Assembly (NCBI GenBank): GCA_947502405.1
Contig: CANMZT010000008.1
Location: 1 to 64,000 of the forward strand
Direction of reading: 5' to 3'
Origin: an uncultured Algibacter sp.
GTDB taxonomy: Bacteria; Bacteroidota; Bacteroidia; Flavobacteriales; Flavobacteriaceae
DNA length: 64,000 nt
In this document: piece after piece, positions 1 through 5,980 of the stretch
Layout of the letters: every line of letters starts with the position of its first letter
How positions within the stretch are numbered: the first letter of the stretch is position 1
Program-made: the position numbers and the translations under genes
The notes under the pieces: model-generated
Told to the model about the DNA's origin: nothing
The model's database searches: none
Seen by the model: only the letters and a program-made list of their open reading frames with translations

Positions 1-643
1 CCATTTGCAAACCAATACCTTTGATTGAGCACATCAAATCTAAGTTGTTTTGCAGCTCATCATCTTCTTTGATGATTTCTATAATTTTTGATTCAACAGC
101 TTTTATTTGTTTGGTCAAGTAGAGTATCATCTTCTGCTGTATATCAAAAATAGTCTTAAAGTCCTTGGCCTTATAAATACTTTTTTGTTCCTTCAATGTA
201 ACTTTATAAGAAGCCCTCTGCTTTATCAACTTTGTTTTTAAGCTCATCAATGATTTAAGCTTAGAAATTGATTTGCTATATGTTTTGGTTGGTGTAATCT
301 CATCTTTTAAGCGGTAAGCATATAAAGCAATACGTTTGGCGTCTACCTTATCATTTTTACCTCTAACAATGCCCATGGATCTTTTTATCTCTAAAGCGGG
401 TGCTATAAAGTAACAGTACTTTTGCTTGTCCAAAACGCAGGTGATTAAATGGGCGTACATACCAGTATGTTCAAACACAAACAGAACACGGCTTATATCC
501 CTGACATGTTTTTTACTCCAGCTCATAAACTCATGTAAACCTTTGCTTGTGTTTTTGAATTGTTTGTTCTTTTGCACTACATGGATACATACATCAATTG
601 TTTTTTTACTAACATCAATACCAATAACTTCAATAAAATTCAT
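1..643 (-). CDS. IS110-family transposase, N-terminal part (runs off left edge)
   Basis: DEDD-type serine recombinase of the IS110 family, which moves its element through a circular intermediate. Reading leftward from the ATG at 641-643 gives an open frame of 214 codons that is still open at base 1. It begins MNFIEVIGIDVSKKTIDV and carries the DEDD N-terminal domain: Asp10 (GID), Glu58 (FEH), and Asp98 and Asp101 in NDKVDAKR, followed by a basic helical linker. The C-terminal Tnp_20 domain with the nucleophilic serine lies outside the window, so I cannot tell whether the gene is intact. The non-coding end expected 5' of an IS110 transposase lies at 644 to about 830. Confidence 0.88.
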   Translation of the reverse strand, partial: MNFIEVIGIDVSKKTIDVCIHVVQKNKQFKNTSKGLHEFMSWSKKHVRDISRVLFVFEHTGMYAHLITCVLDKQKYCYFIAPALEIKRSMGIVRGKNDKVDAKRIALYAYRLKDEITPTKTYSKSISKLKSLMSLKTKLIKQRASYKVTLKEQKSIYKAKDFKTIFDIQQKMILYLTKQIKAVESKIIEIIKEDDELQNNLDLMCSIKGIGLQM

Positions 644-667
644 AACTTTAAATTTAGAAATTAAACA

Positions 668-818
668 TAATGAGTTACTTAAACTAAAACCTTTATAAGG
701 TCGGAAACTGAAATTCTATAGGGTTCTAAGTAACTCTGAAAAAAGAACGGAGACTAATACGCGCCATAGCTCTTTGTTAAGCTAGCTAGGGATAAAGTTC
801 ACTCCGTTCTTTTTAAAT
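668..818 (-). ncRNA. Candidate IS110 bridge RNA (non-coding element end)
   Basis: Upstream of the transposase, in element orientation, two long-range stems follow one another. Stem A pairs 803-814 with 741-752 (AAAAGAACGGAG and its complement, 12 bp, no mismatch) around about 50 nt. Stem B pairs 727-736 with 672-681 (GAGTTACTTA and its complement, 10 bp) around 45 nt. The ATG follows 28 nt later. IS110-group elements are known to encode a bridge RNA with a target-binding and a donor-binding loop in this end. The match here is architectural only; the element boundary and loop pairing are not established. Confidence 0.5.
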
Positions 819-852
819 TTAAACATTAATTTTAATCTGATGCTAATCTAAA

Positions 853-939
853 GGTTAGGGATTGCAGTGGAAAGCCCACAGCGACGCAGGAGCGAGGACT
901 TGTAACGTAAAGCCCGACCCCTTGTGGGTAACGCCCAAA
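853..939 (+). repeat. Dispersed structured repeat, copy 1
   Basis: Starts with GGTTAGGGATTGCAG, contains GAAAGCCCACAG, GCGAGGACTTGTAACG and AAAGCCCGACC, and ends GGTAACGCCCAAA. Related copies lie at 6050-6153 and 46855-46952 in the same orientation. The ends are complementary (GTTA with TAAC). It sits about 60 nt upstream of the pirin gene. It resembles structured repeats common in Flavobacteriia, possibly the Flavo-1 RNA motif, which I name from memory only. Confidence 0.7.
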
Positions 940-1001
940 TTATAACAGAAAAAATAATAATAAAATTTCCTTCTACAAGGAAATGACAAAAGATTAAAAA
1001 A

Positions 1002-1718
1002 ATGAAAACAATAGTTCACAAAGCAGACACAAGAGGGTTTGCAAACCACGGATGGTTAAAATCCCACCATACATTTAGTTTTTCAAGCTATCAAAATGCA
1101 GAGCGCATGAATTTTGGGAAACTAAGAGTGTTAAACGACGATGTTGTACAACCAAAAATGGGGTTTGGAACGCATCCACATCAAAATATGGAGATTATAT
1201 CCATTCCCTTAAAAGGCGCATTATCTCATAAGGACAGCATGGGAAATAAACGCGCTATTGAGGTTGGCGAAGTGCAAGTAATGAGTGCTGGTACGGGACT
1301 GACACATTCTGAGTTTAACGATAGTAAAACCGATGAAGTTAACTTTTTACAACTTTGGATTATCCCAGAAGAAATGGGTGTCGCCCCAAATTACGAGCAG
1401 CGTAAATTTGATGCTTCCAAACGCAAAAATGAATTGCAAACCGTTGTGGCACCAAAGGATAAATTAGAAGGTGATGCGTTACCTATTAGTCAGCAAGCAT
1501 ATATTTATAGAGCTGACTTAGGTGCTGGAAACGCGGTGAATTTAAGTCCGAAAAATGTTGATAATGGGGTTTATGTTTTTGTTGCTGAAGGACGAGTGCA
1601 AGTATCTGGAAATACTTTTGATAAGCGCGATGCCATTGGTATTTGGGATGTTGATACTGTTGAAATTTCAGCTGTTGAAAATTCAGAAGTAATTATTATA
1701 GAAGTTCCTATGAACTAA
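1002..1718 (+). CDS. Pirin family protein (bicupin)
   Basis: A 238-residue cytoplasmic bicupin of the pirin/YhhW family. Some members are quercetin dioxygenases; others act in transcription or redox sensing, so the substrate cannot be assigned. The start MKTIVHKADTRGFANHGW is typical. Residues 17-30 carry the HGWLKSHHTFSF segment. The first cupin holds the metal ligands in FGTHPHQNMEI (about 60-70), and a further His follows in TGLTHSEFN (about 103). The second cupin fills the C-terminal half. Length fits the family. It lies 60 nt downstream of a structured repeat and is followed by its own terminator, so it is probably transcribed alone. Confidence 0.93.
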   Translation: MKTIVHKADTRGFANHGWLKSHHTFSFSSYQNAERMNFGKLRVLNDDVVQPKMGFGTHPHQNMEIISIPLKGALSHKDSMGNKRAIEVGEVQVMSAGTGLTHSEFNDSKTDEVNFLQLWIIPEEMGVAPNYEQRKFDASKRKNELQTVVAPKDKLEGDALPISQQAYIYRADLGAGNAVNLSPKNVDNGVYVFVAEGRVQVSGNTFDKRDAIGIWDVDTVEISAVENSEVIIIEVPMN

Positions 1719-1740
1719 TGATTAGTATTGATTAATAGCG

Positions 1741-1771
1741 AAAAAGCATCTAGAAATAGGTGCTTTTTTTA
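1741..1771 (+). terminator. Rho-independent terminator after the pirin gene
   Basis: AAAAAGCATCT pairs with AGGTGCTTTTT (one G-T pair) around a short loop and is followed by a T run. Confidence 0.75.
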
Positions 1772-1823
1772 TTAAAAACTACGATATTTGCTTTTCTACT
1801 AACTATTATAAAAAGAAAAGATT

Positions 1824-2006
1824 ATGGCGATGAATAAGAATACAGTTTTAGCATGGGCAACCATTTTAATGATAATTATGGGAGTTGTGCTAATTTTAAT
1901 GGGAGCATATAGATACGATGATGTTGCAGGCTGGGGCTTTGCTACAGTAGGTATTGGTTTTTTTGCAATAGCATGGGTGTTTAATGCTTTGAAAGGAAGA
2001 GTTTAA
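1824..2006 (+). CDS. Small membrane protein, CAL67264-like
   Basis: A 60-residue protein with two predicted transmembrane segments, about residues 8-27 (WATILMIIMGVVLILMG) and 37-54 (WGFATVGIGFFAIAWVF), joined by a short AYRYDDVAG loop and ending in a basic KGRV tail. It strongly resembles the small Flavobacteriia membrane family that NCBI labels CAL67264, as far as I recall. It ends 47 nt before ettA on the same strand, so the two may share a transcript. No function is known. The ATG at 1824 is followed by a second ATG at 1830, so the exact start is uncertain by two residues. Confidence 0.75.
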   Translation: MAMNKNTVLAWATILMIIMGVVLILMGAYRYDDVAGWGFATVGIGFFAIAWVFNALKGRV

Positions 2007-2053
2007 GGATTTTCCAAATAAACAATTAAACACTTTAACAAATAACATATATA

Positions 2054-3745
2054 ATGAGTGACGATAAAAAGATAATTTTCTCAATGTCTGGTGTTACCAA
2101 GACATTTCAAAGTGCAAATACGCCAGTTTTAAAAAATATTTATTTAAGTTTTTTCTATGGGGCTAAAATTGGAATTCTAGGGCTTAACGGTTCTGGTAAA
2201 TCTACATTACTAAAAATTATTGCAGGTGTTGATAAGAATTACCAAGGCGATGTGGTGTTTTCTCAGGATTACTCTGTGGGGTATTTAGAGCAGGAACCAC
2301 AACTTGATGAAGAGAAAACGGTAATGGAAGTAGTTAGAGAAGGAGCTGCTGAAACCGTTGCCATTCTTGATGAATACAATAAAATAAACGATCAGTTTGG
2401 GCTTGAAGAAGTATACAGTGATCCTGATAAGATGGAGAAACTTATGGCAAGACAAGCAGAATTACAGGATCAAATTGATGCTGCAAATGCTTGGGAATTA
2501 GACACTAAGTTAGAAATTGCCATGGATGCCTTAAGAACTCCTGATGGCGATAAAAAAATAGGCGTATTATCTGGAGGTGAACGCAGACGTGTAGCCTTAT
2601 GTCGTTTATTATTAAAAGAACCAGATGTCTTATTATTAGATGAGCCTACCAACCATTTGGATGCAGAATCCGTTCATTGGTTAGAGCATCATTTAGCACA
2701 ATATAAAGGTACGGTAATTGCCGTAACGCACGATAGGTATTTCCTAGATAATGTGGCGGGTTGGATTTTAGAGCTGGATAGAGGAGAAGGTATTCCTTGG
2801 AAAGGAAACTACTCGTCTTGGTTAGACCAAAAATCTAAGCGTATGGCGCAAGAAGGTAAAGCAGCTTCTAAACGTCAAAAAACCTTAGAACGTGAATTAG
2901 AGTGGGTGCGCCAAGGGGCTAAAGGGCGACAAACCAAGCAAAAAGCACGTTTAAAGAATTACGATAAATTAATGAGTCAAGATCAAAAGCAGCTTGACGA
3001 AAAATTAGAAATATACATCCCTAATGGGCCGCGTTTAGGAACCAATGTCATTGAAGCCAAGGGTGTTGCTAAAGGTTATGACGATAAGTTGTTGTACGAC
3101 GATTTAAATTTCAATTTACCACAAGCCGGAATAGTTGGTATTATAGGTCCTAACGGTGCTGGTAAAACCACCATTTTTAGAATGATAATGGGAGAAGAAA
3201 AACCTGATAAAGGTGAGTTTGTTGTGGGGGATACTGCAAAATTGGCTTATGTAGACCAAAAACATTCTAATATAGATCCAGAAAAAACCATTTGGCAGAA
3301 CTTTAGTGATGAACAAGAATTGGTGATGATGGGTGGAAAAGAAGTAAATTCTAGAGCGTATTTAAGCAGATTTAATTTTTCTGGTGGTGAACAAAACAAA
3401 AAGGTGAAATTACTTTCTGGAGGGGAGCGTAACCGTTTACATTTGGCTATGACGCTAAAGGAAGAAGGTAATGTATTACTTTTAGATGAGCCTACTAACG
3501 ATCTTGATGTAAATACTTTACGAGCTTTAGAAGAAGGTTTAGAGAACTTTGCAGGTTGTGCTGTAGTTATTAGTCACGACCGTTGGTTTTTAGATAGAAT
3601 TTGTACGCATATTTTAGCGTTTGAAGGCGACTCGCATGTGTATTTCTTTGAGGGTAGTTTTTCAGATTATGAGGAAAATAAGAAGAAACGATTAGGTGGT
3701 GATTTGATGCCAAAACGAATTAAGTACAAGAAATTAGTAAGATAA
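2054..3745 (+). CDS. ettA: Energy-dependent translational throttle protein EttA (ABC-F ATPase)
   Basis: A 563-residue ABC-F ATPase. EttA binds the ribosomal E site and gates the first peptide bond according to the ATP/ADP ratio. There are two ABC domains and no membrane segments. Domain 1 has Walker A GLNGSGKST (43-51), signature LSGGERRR and Walker B LLLDEPTNHLDAE. Domain 2 has GPNGAGKTT, LSGGERNR and LLLDEPTNDLDV. The linker between them is basic (RQKTLERELEWVRQG), as in EttA, and the protein ends in the basic KRIKYKKLVR. Length and domain order match EttA rather than Uup or YheS. The CAL67264-like gene precedes it and a strong hairpin terminator follows 10 nt after the stop. Confidence 0.96.
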   Translation: MSDDKKIIFSMSGVTKTFQSANTPVLKNIYLSFFYGAKIGILGLNGSGKSTLLKIIAGVDKNYQGDVVFSQDYSVGYLEQEPQLDEEKTVMEVVREGAAETVAILDEYNKINDQFGLEEVYSDPDKMEKLMARQAELQDQIDAANAWELDTKLEIAMDALRTPDGDKKIGVLSGGERRRVALCRLLLKEPDVLLLDEPTNHLDAESVHWLEHHLAQYKGTVIAVTHDRYFLDNVAGWILELDRGEGIPWKGNYSSWLDQKSKRMAQEGKAASKRQKTLERELEWVRQGAKGRQTKQKARLKNYDKLMSQDQKQLDEKLEIYIPNGPRLGTNVIEAKGVAKGYDDKLLYDDLNFNLPQAGIVGIIGPNGAGKTTIFRMIMGEEKPDKGEFVVGDTAKLAYVDQKHSNIDPEKTIWQNFSDEQELVMMGGKEVNSRAYLSRFNFSGGEQNKKVKLLSGGERNRLHLAMTLKEEGNVLLLDEPTNDLDVNTLRALEEGLENFAGCAVVISHDRWFLDRICTHILAFEGDSHVYFFEGSFSDYEENKKKRLGGDLMPKRIKYKKLVR

Positions 3746-3754
3746 ATTAGTAAT

Positions 3755-3783
3755 AAAAAAGGCTGCAATTGCAGCCTTTTTTA
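3755..3783. terminator. Bidirectional terminator between ettA and the 3789-3992 gene
   Basis: A perfect stem GGCTGCAATTGCAGCC flanked by an A run on the left and a T run on the right, so it can stop transcription from either side. Confidence 0.9.
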
Positions 3784-3788
3784 TTACT

Positions 3789-3992
3789 CTATTTTTGAGA
3801 TTCTAATTGTTTAATTCTTTTTCTTAATTTATAAGTATTGAACAGGCTTAAACTTAATAAAAGTAAAAGTGTTAAAAACCCAATAGATAAGATACTAATC
3901 AGATTACCAAGGTTTTTTTCGTTTTCTAAAGAATTTAAAACTTCTAGATTATTTTGAAATAATATTTTTGTGTAAACAATGAATGTTTTCAT
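3789..3992 (-). CDS. Small single-span membrane protein, unknown
   Basis: 67 residues, not recognised. One hydrophobic segment at about 31-51 (LISILSIGFLTLLLLLSLSL) is followed by a short basic coiled-coil tail (NTYKLRKRIKQLESQK). The preceding 30 residues are polar. It converges on ettA and shares its terminator. The next gene on the same strand (4162-4404) has the same plan, one span then YKLKKENERLD, so the two may be distant paralogues; that is inference from layout and tail. Real-gene status is likely but unproven because the protein is short. Confidence 0.55.
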   Translation of the reverse strand: MKTFIVYTKILFQNNLEVLNSLENEKNLGNLISILSIGFLTLLLLLSLSLFNTYKLRKRIKQLESQK

Positions 3993-4161
3993 GATTATTG
4001 GGGTTTATTATTTTTATATATCAAGGGCCTAACTTGTAGTGTTAAGGTCTATTAAAAATTAACATAGCTAAATTACTACATTGATAAATGAAAGAAAAAT
4101 CTAAAGACGCATTTTCGATAAAGTGTTGATTCAGAAATCTTCCAAAGATTTAATTAGTTCA

Positions 4162-4404
4162 TTAATTTCCACCATACATATGCCCATCAGTAAAGTCTTG
4201 ATAGGGTTTGTCTTCTTCCTCTGCAATCTTTTTGTTTATAGCATCTAAACGCTCATTTTCTTTTTTTAGCTTATAGGATTTTCTTATACCCAAAAGCAAT
4301 AAAATACCAAAAAACACGGTCACAATAATAAGAACTGTAACAATACTTGATTGATTTACTAGAGGTAATAGAAGAAGTAAAGAGAGTAAGTAGTTTTGCA
4401 CCAT
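4162..4404 (-). CDS. Small membrane protein with charged coiled-coil tail, unknown
   Basis: 80 residues, not recognised. It has a hydrophobic N-terminus (MVQNYLLSLLLLLPLV) that could be a signal sequence or first span, a clear span at about 22-42 (VTVLIIVTVFFGILLLLG), then a charged helix (RKSYKLKKENERLDAINKKI) and an acidic end with DGHMYGGN. The span-plus-KLKK helix layout matches the neighbour at 3789-3992. No partner or function can be inferred from context; the flanking gaps contain no obvious operon link. Confidence 0.6.
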   Translation of the reverse strand: MVQNYLLSLLLLLPLVNQSSIVTVLIIVTVFFGILLLLGIRKSYKLKKENERLDAINKKIAEEEDKPYQDFTDGHMYGGN

Positions 4405-4636
4405 AATTAATGCGTCATTGGTATTTGGTTATATACCAAAGATAATATATTCTTTCAATATGTATGAAAATTTTAACAAGTGTAACAATTTCTTAATTTG
4501 GAATACCTATAATTTGAGCAAAAAAAATTAAAGCACATTTTTATAAAGTAAATATCTATTTACGTTTTAAAATTGAGATTTTTTAACGAAATTGCTTGTC
4601 CGTAAAATTGTTCAACTTAAAACCTAATAATATACC

Positions 4637-5980
4637 ATGTCTGATGATTTTGATTTACTAGAAACCAATTCTAACGAAAAAACCGAAAAAGTAGATGTTA
4701 ATTGGGGAAAAGCCATTGACACTATGAAATCTAAATTATCTCAAGAAGATGATCCTGAAGTGCGTCAAAAAATATTAAATGCCACTTTGGATGATGTGGT
4801 GCATATGGCAGAAAAGGATAGAACTACACTTTTGGATGCTATAAAGGACTTAACCGACTATCAAGATGAAGTAGGTATTATATTCGAGAAATTTTCAGCA
4901 TTAAACCCAACAGAGCAAAAAGTTATTGATGATGCTCAAAAAGGATTAGAGCGTGCTAAAATTGAATTGGAAGATGCGCAAGCTAAACCAGACACCTGGT
5001 GGAATAACCTTTGGGGAAGAAAGAGTAAAATCAAGAAAGCTCAAGACGCTTTACAAGCAGCTGAAAAAACTAGAGCAGGAGCAGATAACAAGGCTAAAGC
5101 CATGTTTCAAGAGCGTATAGAAAGTGCAGATGTACAAACACTTTTAAGCGAACTATCTTATAAATCGCAAGCAGCGGTTACTCGTTTAAAAAATCGTGAG
5201 GTAGAAATAAAAGAAGTAGAAGATAAGTTACAAGATGCTATAGTTGAAGCTACAAAAAACCATACAAAAGCTTTAGAAAAAAAGAAAGAAGTAGAAGCTA
5301 AACTAGAAGAACAATATGCGTTGTTAAAGCAAGCGCGTCAAGAGCTAGAAGATATTGCCGATAAGCAATCAGCTGAATATGCTCAAGCCGTTGGTAAAGT
5401 AACACAACTAGAGCAAAAGGTTGAAGAACTTGAAGGTCTTAAAAATGCATACACCACTTTAGCAGCTAGTAAAGATAGCTTTGTACACAAGCATAATTTA
5501 ACTATTAAGGTGTTAACATCTTTACGTAGCAATTTGCAAACGCATCGTGCGAAATTAAAAAGTGATACCGAGGAACGACTTAAGTATTACGATGGCTATG
5601 TGGTAGCATTAAAAGCTAGAACAGACCAAGAATTTGCTGCTATTTTAGAGCATTTAGGCGTAAAAACCGACGAACATATTGGAGAAACTCTAGCATCAAT
5701 GCATACCGCAAGTGCCAAAGCGCGTCAAGATATGATGGATAACATCCCAGTTCACGAAAAAGTAATGCAAGGTGTCTATAGCAGTTATGCAGAGGCTTTA
5801 CAAGAAATTAGAGCTAAGGATGGTGAAATCCAAAAGAATTTTGCAGAGCGTTATGGTATCGATATGAAAGAGATTTTCGAAGATTATTATAAAGCCGATG
5901 CTAGCCAACCTTCTGGAGACGATGGTGAACCAGCAGGAAAACCAAAACCAGAAGCTAACGACGACGATTTATTAAGTTAA
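4637..5980 (+). CDS. Cytoplasmic coiled-coil protein, first gene of AAA+ locus
   Basis: 447 residues with no signal peptide or membrane span. Acidic N-terminus (MSDDFDLLETN), helical region to about 115, then a tryptophan-containing break (DTWWNNLWGRKSKIKKA, about 118-134), a long heptad-rich coiled coil to about 270, a second helical domain to about 420, and an acidic Pro/Gly/Asp tail ending DDDLLS. Automatic annotation often gives such proteins misleading cytoskeletal names; I do not recognise a characterised family. It opens a co-directional run that includes an AAA+ ATPase, so a scaffold or client role for that ATPase is plausible inference. A hairpin repeat and a structured repeat separate it from the next gene. 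Confidence 0.8.
   Translation: MSDDFDLLETNSNEKTEKVDVNWGKAIDTMKSKLSQEDDPEVRQKILNATLDDVVHMAEKDRTTLLDAIKDLTDYQDEVGIIFEKFSALNPTEQKVIDDAQKGLERAKIELEDAQAKPDTWWNNLWGRKSKIKKAQDALQAAEKTRAGADNKAKAMFQERIESADVQTLLSELSYKSQAAVTRLKNREVEIKEVEDKLQDAIVEATKNHTKALEKKKEVEAKLEEQYALLKQARQELEDIADKQSAEYAQAVGKVTQLEQKVEELEGLKNAYTTLAASKDSFVHKHNLTIKVLTSLRSNLQTHRAKLKSDTEERLKYYDGYVVALKARTDQEFAAILEHLGVKTDEHIGETLASMHTASAKARQDMMDNIPVHEKVMQGVYSSYAEALQEIRAKDGEIQKNFAERYGIDMKEIFEDYYKADASQPSGDDGEPAGKPKPEANDDDLLS

Follow-up and report, generated by a model that had tools for sequence, protein, structure and literature searches.

Bridge RNAs of IS110 elements are already known, as is the use of a host repeat by one of these elements. 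IS621 inserts into REP elements, carries guides in the same order and strand sense as those reported below, and has a promoter that is rebuilt where its two ends are joined (PMC11208160); its bridge RNA is also covered by a second paper (PMC11208158). A stem-loop ahead of the target loop is part of the consensus of 103 IS110 left ends (PMC11208160). The Flavo-1 RNA motif (RF01705) comes without a stated function in the available text of two papers (PMC2864571, PMC9723704), and insertion sequences go unmentioned in that text.

The DNA analyzed here, which we call the window, is a stretch of 64,000 nucleotides from an uncultured Algibacter sp. (assembly GCA_947502405.1, contig CANMZT010000008.1, positions 1–64,000, forward strand). 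It is the start of contig C8 in a host genome of 81 contigs, and its first base is a contig end that falls inside an IS110-group transposase gene. An earlier note had described a two-stem feature beside that gene, at 644–830, and had proposed that the element carries a bridge RNA. We conclude that this feature is very probably the bridge RNA of an IS110-group insertion sequence, a proposal now supported by the stems and their covariation, four guides, the element ends and an empty site.

The Transposase and the Position of the RNA Region

The gene at the start of the window is as follows:

1–643, minus strand: first 214 codons of an IS110-group transposase gene that runs off the contig end (PF01548, NF033542 and IS621 profile match)

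The fragment matched Pfam PF01548 with 76.2 bits and NCBIfam NF033542 with 96.4 bits, the latter being under the cut-off of 140 for this fragment. Its profile matched that of the IS621 transposase 8wt6 at E 9.9e-18, and the only solved relatives at E ≤1e-5 were the transposases of IS621 and ISCro4. Residues D10, E58, D98 and D101 are invariant in 10 sequences including that of the window and align with D or E of IS621; we take them to be the catalytic residues of the DEDD (RuvC-like) domain. The window transposase has the N-terminal DEDD (RuvC-like) domain of the IS110 family. The Transposase_20 domain lies outside the window and was found on the copy at the end of contig C2 (64.3 bits) and in the relative L062 (80.8 bits). 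On C2 it adjoins a right end identical over 77 bases to that of contig C11, whose flank is that of the window insertion; the domain is assigned on the basis of the C2 copy, a gene piece separate from that of the window. Another gene of the IS110 family, distinct from this one and with both domains, is present in the same genome (G000:C11:20838–21647; L010, L011).

The RNA region lies 5′ of the transposase in element orientation, as the earlier note had placed it: 664–822 is upstream of the gene start at 643 and on the same strand, which is the arrangement of the IS110 group as opposed to IS1111.

Two Hairpins That Covary among Related Elements

The RNA region and its parts are:

664–822, minus strand: predicted bridge RNA region with both loops (fold z −4.12; covariation)
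802–814, minus strand: target-binding loop, 5′ arm of the outer stem, with 740–752 (covariation, 53 sequences)
740–752, minus strand: target-binding loop, 3′ arm of the outer stem (pairing and covariation)
767–784, minus strand: apical hairpin of the target loop, 780–784 with 767–771 (covariation)
727–736, minus strand: donor-binding loop, 5′ arm of the outer stem, with 672–681 (alignment-free arm test, 0/1000)
672–681, minus strand: donor-binding loop, 3′ arm of the outer stem (base-by-base pairing)

Both stems were checked base by base. The first had been given as 803–814 with 741–752; it is real and perfect, but that register is off by one, since 803–814 pairs with 740–751. The stem is in fact perfect over 13 bp (802–814 with 740–752) and encloses 49 nt. 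The second was described correctly, 727–736 pairing with 672–681 over a perfect 10 bp with 45 nt enclosed. None of 500 dinucleotide shuffles of 644–833 had a stem of ≥13 bp with its outer pair ≥35 positions apart, and none combined a stem of ≥12 with a subsequent one of ≥10; the real 644–833 also holds one extra 10-bp pairing, which encloses 157 nt. The minus strand of 664–822 folds into both hairpins with z = −4.12 (0/200 shuffles as good), and the fold that includes the leader, 664–846, has z = −3.24 (1/200 as good). Looking for a stem-loop ahead of the target loop, we found that the 32-nt leader, 815–846, folds no better than shuffles (z +0.57).

For covariation, related elements were collected from a scan of named genomes, where the best 80 of 259 related loci were taken and 64 of them used, the other 16 being further copies or cut loci. 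Protein searches did better at finding relatives than a DNA query with 644–853 against 99 genomes, which, apart from the element's own, matched 11 genomes in stretches of 20–161 bases. Removal of eight of the 64 that have no start motif and of four near-identical sequences left 52 relatives, which were aligned with the window (alignment A2). Across these 53 RNAs, 87.9% of cells in the first outer stem are paired, with both-side changes in 11 of its 13 pairs, and 78.5% in the apical hairpin of the target loop, with both-side changes in all five pairs. For the structure as a whole, 0/500 shuffles reached the observed values on any of five measures.

The stem of the donor-binding loop had 52.3% of its cells paired in the MAFFT alignment, a low count that arises because the stretch is misaligned, and the arms were therefore compared alignment-free. 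Arms of the first outer stem matched their own partners at 8.37/9, against 7.15 between sequences (0/2000 permutations), and those of the second at 6.65 against 5.33 (0/1000); this test used 52 of the 53 sequences (L126 failed) and kept some arms misassigned by the pattern (e.g., L071, L098, L081, L115 and L120). Covariation among relatives, the check proposed earlier, is therefore present in both stems, in the first by alignment and in both by alignment-free permutation, and the region has the two successive internal-loop hairpins of a bridge RNA. Rfam searches of 1–5000 (E up to 1) and of the whole window (gathering cut-offs) gave no match to a bridge-RNA family; over 1–5000 they returned Flavo-1 under gathering and four weak, chance-like matches at 3715–3808, and over the whole window nothing at gathering.

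Element Ends, Target Repeat and Empty Site

The element is multicopy in its own genome, where we found three left ends (in the window on C8, at the end of C10 and at the start of C26) and five right ends (on C2, C11, C14, C16 and C18). Each of the eight lies where a contig enters the element and stops, as is expected of a repeat that breaks assemblies. The C10 and C26 left ends are 100% identical to window 786–853 and 788–853, respectively, and the last four right ends are the same as C2 over 74–77 bases. Lined up, the copies give a left end of CTTTAGATTAGC... and a right end of ...CATAGAATAC, the latter about 40 nt past the transposase stop codon. Outside the left ends, the flanks continue as different copies of a single repeat. 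The five right flanks have nothing in common except an initial GCG, which is part of the target. The features at this boundary are:

853, minus strand: first base of the left end, CTTTAGATTAGC... (C8, C10 and C26 identical up to 853, then different Flavo-1-type copies; empty site)
854–855, no strand: core dinucleotide AC in element orientation (at both insertion ends, once in the empty site)
854–943, plus strand: Flavo-1-type repeat, the target, with recognized 5′ edge GTTAGGGATTG (RF01705 and repeat family)

An outer boundary near 820–850 had been suggested earlier. There is one nearby, but the lined-up copies put the actual left end at 853 and the core at 854–855. Among relatives, the base before the core C varies on the left side; AC is shared at the window insertion.

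The repeat in the window matched RF01705 over 841–923 with 33.8 bits (gathering 42; E 1.8e-4 in a 5000-base search). It is absent from the genome list of RF01705 matches and is one of a family with at least 40 BLAST places in its own genome. Each of the three left ends directly adjoins the 5′ edge of a different Flavo-1-type repeat copy, always at the same base and in the same orientation. The copy beside C26 scores 53.0 bits, over gathering, and is the sole one of the three in the genome list; that beside C10 was assigned by its DNA similarity to the window copy. The genome holds at least 74 RF01705 matches at E ≤0.001 (150 of 917 candidates scored), 37 of them over gathering, and 14 control genomes had no RF01705 match. 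The sequence CGCGTTAGGGATTG occurs in the genome in 37 exact and 144 near copies (≤2 mismatches), compared with 74 for the reversed control. The edge is GCGTTAGGGATTG in all five uninterrupted repeat copies examined, and the element, antisense to the repeat, has inserted precisely between GC and GTTAGGG. Another Flavo-1 match, G000:C18:61714–61790 (model 9–76), has its 5′ edge cut by a contig end and is possibly another left-end site.

The other side of the window insertion could be identified from the neighboring genes. The right flank on C11 reaches the end of a pirin-family gene, and the gene that follows the window repeat (1002–1718) is likewise a pirin. Since both neighbors are pirins, C8 and C11 are the two flanks of a single insertion. 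In the same-genus genome G007, an uninterrupted repeat with edge AGTGGCGCGTTAGGGATTG lies between two pirin genes, an empty site with the same target edge GGCGCGTTAGGGATTG. When C8 and C11 are joined, they align with G007 through both gene edges with no gap at the junction. The empty-site repeat was assigned by this alignment and is absent from the RF01705 matches listed for G007. A DNA search with 644–853 found no match to the element's RNA region in G007, and by eye no repeat was seen at that place in the same-genus loci L143, L144 and L146. G007 also has at least 70 RF01705 matches (150 candidates scored). Of the full element and its empty site, which the earlier note had named as things to look for, the element ends, the partner flank and an empty orthologous site were found.

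Guides of the Window Element and of Its Relatives

In element orientation, the target reads ATCCCTA-AC-GCGCCA and the joined ends read ATAGAAT-AC-CTTTA. The two loops contain four matches to these sequences:

785–793, minus strand: left target guide (LTG) AUCCCUAGC, target ATCCCTAAC, 8/9 (left flanks; family test)
759–766, minus strand: right target guide (RTG) UGGCGCGU, complement of ACGCGCCA, the core AC and right target, 8/8 (C11 right flank; family test)
713–719, minus strand: left donor guide (LDG) AUAGAAU, right end ...ATAGAATAC, 7/7 (family test, 52/54)
689–695, minus strand: right donor guide (RDG) UAAAGGU, complement of ACCTTTA, the core and left end, 7/7 (lined-up ends)

The guides of the target loop match both sides of the target across the core, and those of the donor loop match both element ends across the core, which bears out the suggestion that the loops state the element's target (8/9 and 8/8) and donor (7/7 and 7/7). 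The one mismatch of the LTG is its base 8, the core A, and is the same in all three left flanks, each of which fits 8/9. Over its first five bases the RTG fits the right ends on C11 at 5, C2 at 4, and C14, C16 and C18 at 3 each. The RDG match was read in the window element alone; the family tests cover the LTG, RTG and LDG.

In these tests each guide was compared with its own flank or end and with those of other elements. The LTG fits its own left flank at 6.21/9 and those of others at 3.16 (0/5000 permutations; n = 52 of 65 elements, 13 having no usable pair). Of the 52, 24 fit at 8–9/9 and 15 at ≤4/9, some of the latter through a wrongly chosen boundary. The RTG fits its own right flank at 4.00/5 and those of others at 1.51 (0/5000; n = 35 of 65); 29 of the 35 fit at 4–5 and four at ≤2/5, some through a misread guide. 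A narrower right-end pattern had given n = 15, with 3.87 for own flanks, 1.90 for others and 0/5000, and was then widened to n = 35; the wider pattern misses the right end of the window element, whose flanks were read from the lined-up copies. The LDG equals its own right end at 7/7 in 52 of 54 elements (59 tried), which fall into five sequence types (0/5000); the search pattern restricts both sides to those types, and agreement within that range is not forced. None of these guide permutations takes relatedness into account, and the sets still include some close relatives that share a target.

Against this reservation, the nearest relatives, L062 (72% identical) and L063 (68%), have very different LTGs that fit their own flanks at 8/9 and 9/9: target programs change while the donor side stays.

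A shared Flavo-1 edge target was considered for the Aureivirga element L067 and rejected. Both of its copies lie elsewhere inside Flavo-1-like sequence, and its 14-base target (guide plus flank) is in 0/14 high-scoring Flavo-1 copies of the same genome. Loci L067, L014 and L026 (Aureivirga sp. CE67, matching genome G042) comprise two copies with the same right flank, GGAGGCGACC, and the gene matches of this element carry an internal stop. In Mucilaginibacter, four loci from four genomes (L104, L105, L109 and L110) have a partial second hairpin, similar to a target loop, just outside the apparent left end, which reads CCTTTAGAT (in L109, CATTTAGATT).

Alternative Explanations

Stable hairpins near the ends of insertion sequences often serve as terminators, attenuators or repeats bound by the transposase, and the stems could be such an end structure, for instance sub-terminal inverted repeats as in IS1111. 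A run of U at the end of the first outer stem fits this explanation. Hairpins that enclose 45–49 nt do not, and the longest exact inverted repeat in the outer 60 bases of the ends is 8 A/T bases, compared with the 11–13 bp of IS1111. The unpaired parts of the loops, moreover, match target and donor in the four places expected of a bridge RNA, and the per-element family tests agree for three of the four guides. We consider it very improbable that the stems are an end structure of this other kind.

It could also be that the bridge RNA is real and its association with Flavo-1 incidental, the repeats being tolerant sites for which the RNA is not programmed. The repeats are numerous, and harmless insertions survive better. 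Against it, three of three left ends are at the same repeat base, in the same orientation and beside the LTG match, and the window insertion fits the LTG at 8/9 and the RTG at 8/8; the relatives' different guides also fit their own different flanks. An incidental association is therefore just as unlikely in our judgment, and we favor a bridge RNA that is programmed for the repeat.

A Candidate Promoter Split between the Element Ends, and a Proposed Mechanism

Promoters of the Bacteroidota follow the pattern TTG plus TAnnTTTG. In the related elements, 36 of 49 right ends carry a TTG precisely 17 bases ahead of their end, and CTTTAGATTTG is the most frequent of the 51 left ends selected by CTTTA or TTTTA. 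The spacing TTG-N18-22-TAnnTT is present in 34 of 41 joined ends, and the full TTG-N17-23-TAnnTTTG in 10 of 32. The window has the following candidate:

843–850, minus strand: TAGATTAG, candidate −7 box, one mismatch to TAnnTTTG (read from the junction)

Its TTG partner belongs to the right end and lies 20 nt from it when the ends are joined into a circle. The TTG and TTTG lie outside the guide matches, so pairing gives no explanation for them. We infer that a Bacteroidota-type promoter is split between the element ends and rebuilt on joining, and that the bridge RNA is expressed. Such a split promoter predicts when the RNA gets made.

We hypothesize that the element, by the IS110/IS621 mechanism, would be excised as a circle with its ends joined at the core. 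The circle joint would put the TTG box of the right end beside the TAnnTTTG-like box of the left end, and transcription of the RNA may thereby be switched on. Transposase and RNA would then pair the circle joint, as donor, with a target and recombine the two at the core. On this model the element is probably programmed for the 5′ edge of Flavo-1-type repeats; the window copy lies antisense at the edge of one such repeat, flanked by the two pirin-family genes. The host has dozens of these repeats, which would provide a large supply of landing sites.

Related Elements with Two Target Hairpins

Upstream of the transposase gene, seven sister elements (L090, L092, L095, L101, L102, L115 and L215) carry an additional target-binding hairpin that precedes the usual one; the window element has one target loop, which matches Flavo-1-type repeats. 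Within a two-loop element the left guides are nearly the same, and the right guides, in most cases, differ at the base immediately following the core. For the five such elements with a right end, the flank fits one loop at 5/5 and the other at 4/5 with guides picked by eye, the better-fitting loop being the first in L101 and L102 and the second in L090, L092 and L095. In 17 uninterrupted sites from nine genomes (two of them with one-loop elements), the base in question is G in 5, A in 4 and T in 8. Free sites include both variants spelled by the loops in only two of five cases, L101 (A and G) and L102 (T and G). Those of L090 have only T and those of L095 only G; those of L092 also have only G, which neither L092 loop spells. 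Bridge RNAs of this Bacteroidota clade might thus carry more than one target program, taking one element to two target variants, a tentative reading that we place slightly short of an even chance.

Translating the joined flanks to name the target of the two-loop elements gave no result, and Rfam returned nothing there. In L095 (Salegentibacter), part of the target loop plus the donor loop is tandemly repeated within the RNA region. Downstream of L101, L102 and L090, a variant of the two-loop elements' target (...GGCNCTATGGGAAGTAA) appears again no more than about 200 bases past the right end, preceded, by eye, by a long hairpin-like stretch; the reading frame that follows in L101 is presumably SSB. 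As for earlier mention of such an arrangement, two papers were covered: neither ‘tandem’ nor ‘two target’ appears in the main text of PMC11208160, nor ‘tandem’ in the available text of PMC11187229.

Comparison with Known Systems

What this locus adds to the known systems is a Flavo-1 target, a probable split promoter of Bacteroidota type, and sister elements with two target loops. It provides a decoded natural bridge RNA from the Bacteroidota, complete with ends, core, target, partner flank and empty orthologous site, and the guides of about 50 relatives can be read likewise, which is useful for choosing recombinases for Bacteroidota. The widespread Flavo-1 repeats would also gain a concrete role as landing sites for mobile elements, in parallel to REP elements and IS621.

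The window element resembles IS621 in its transposase family, in having its RNA gene ahead of the transposase, within the non-coding left end, and in the order of target loop and then donor loop. In both, the left guides have the sequence of the top strand, the right guides are complementary to it, and the core dinucleotide lies within the guides. Both insert at a family of host repeats, REP elements for IS621 and Flavo-1-type repeats here, and both have a promoter rebuilt at the joined ends, which for the window element is our interpretation. They differ in the core, AC here and CT in IS621, and in the Bacteroidota-type boxes of the promoter. Unlike IS621-type elements, the window element has no stem-loop before the target loop; we count this as a difference and do not regard the stem-loop as a requirement for guidance. 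RNA-guided choice of target is shared with the seekRNA elements (IS1111 and IS110), and a longer non-coding region upstream of the transposase gene with IS110 and some relatives; the downstream region and the sub-terminal inverted repeats of 11–13 bp reported for IS1111 in the available text of the same paper were not seen in the window element (PMC11187229). As to Flavo-1 (RF01705; PMC2864571, PMC9723704), the target is a copy or close variant of that motif, which here serves as the landing site.
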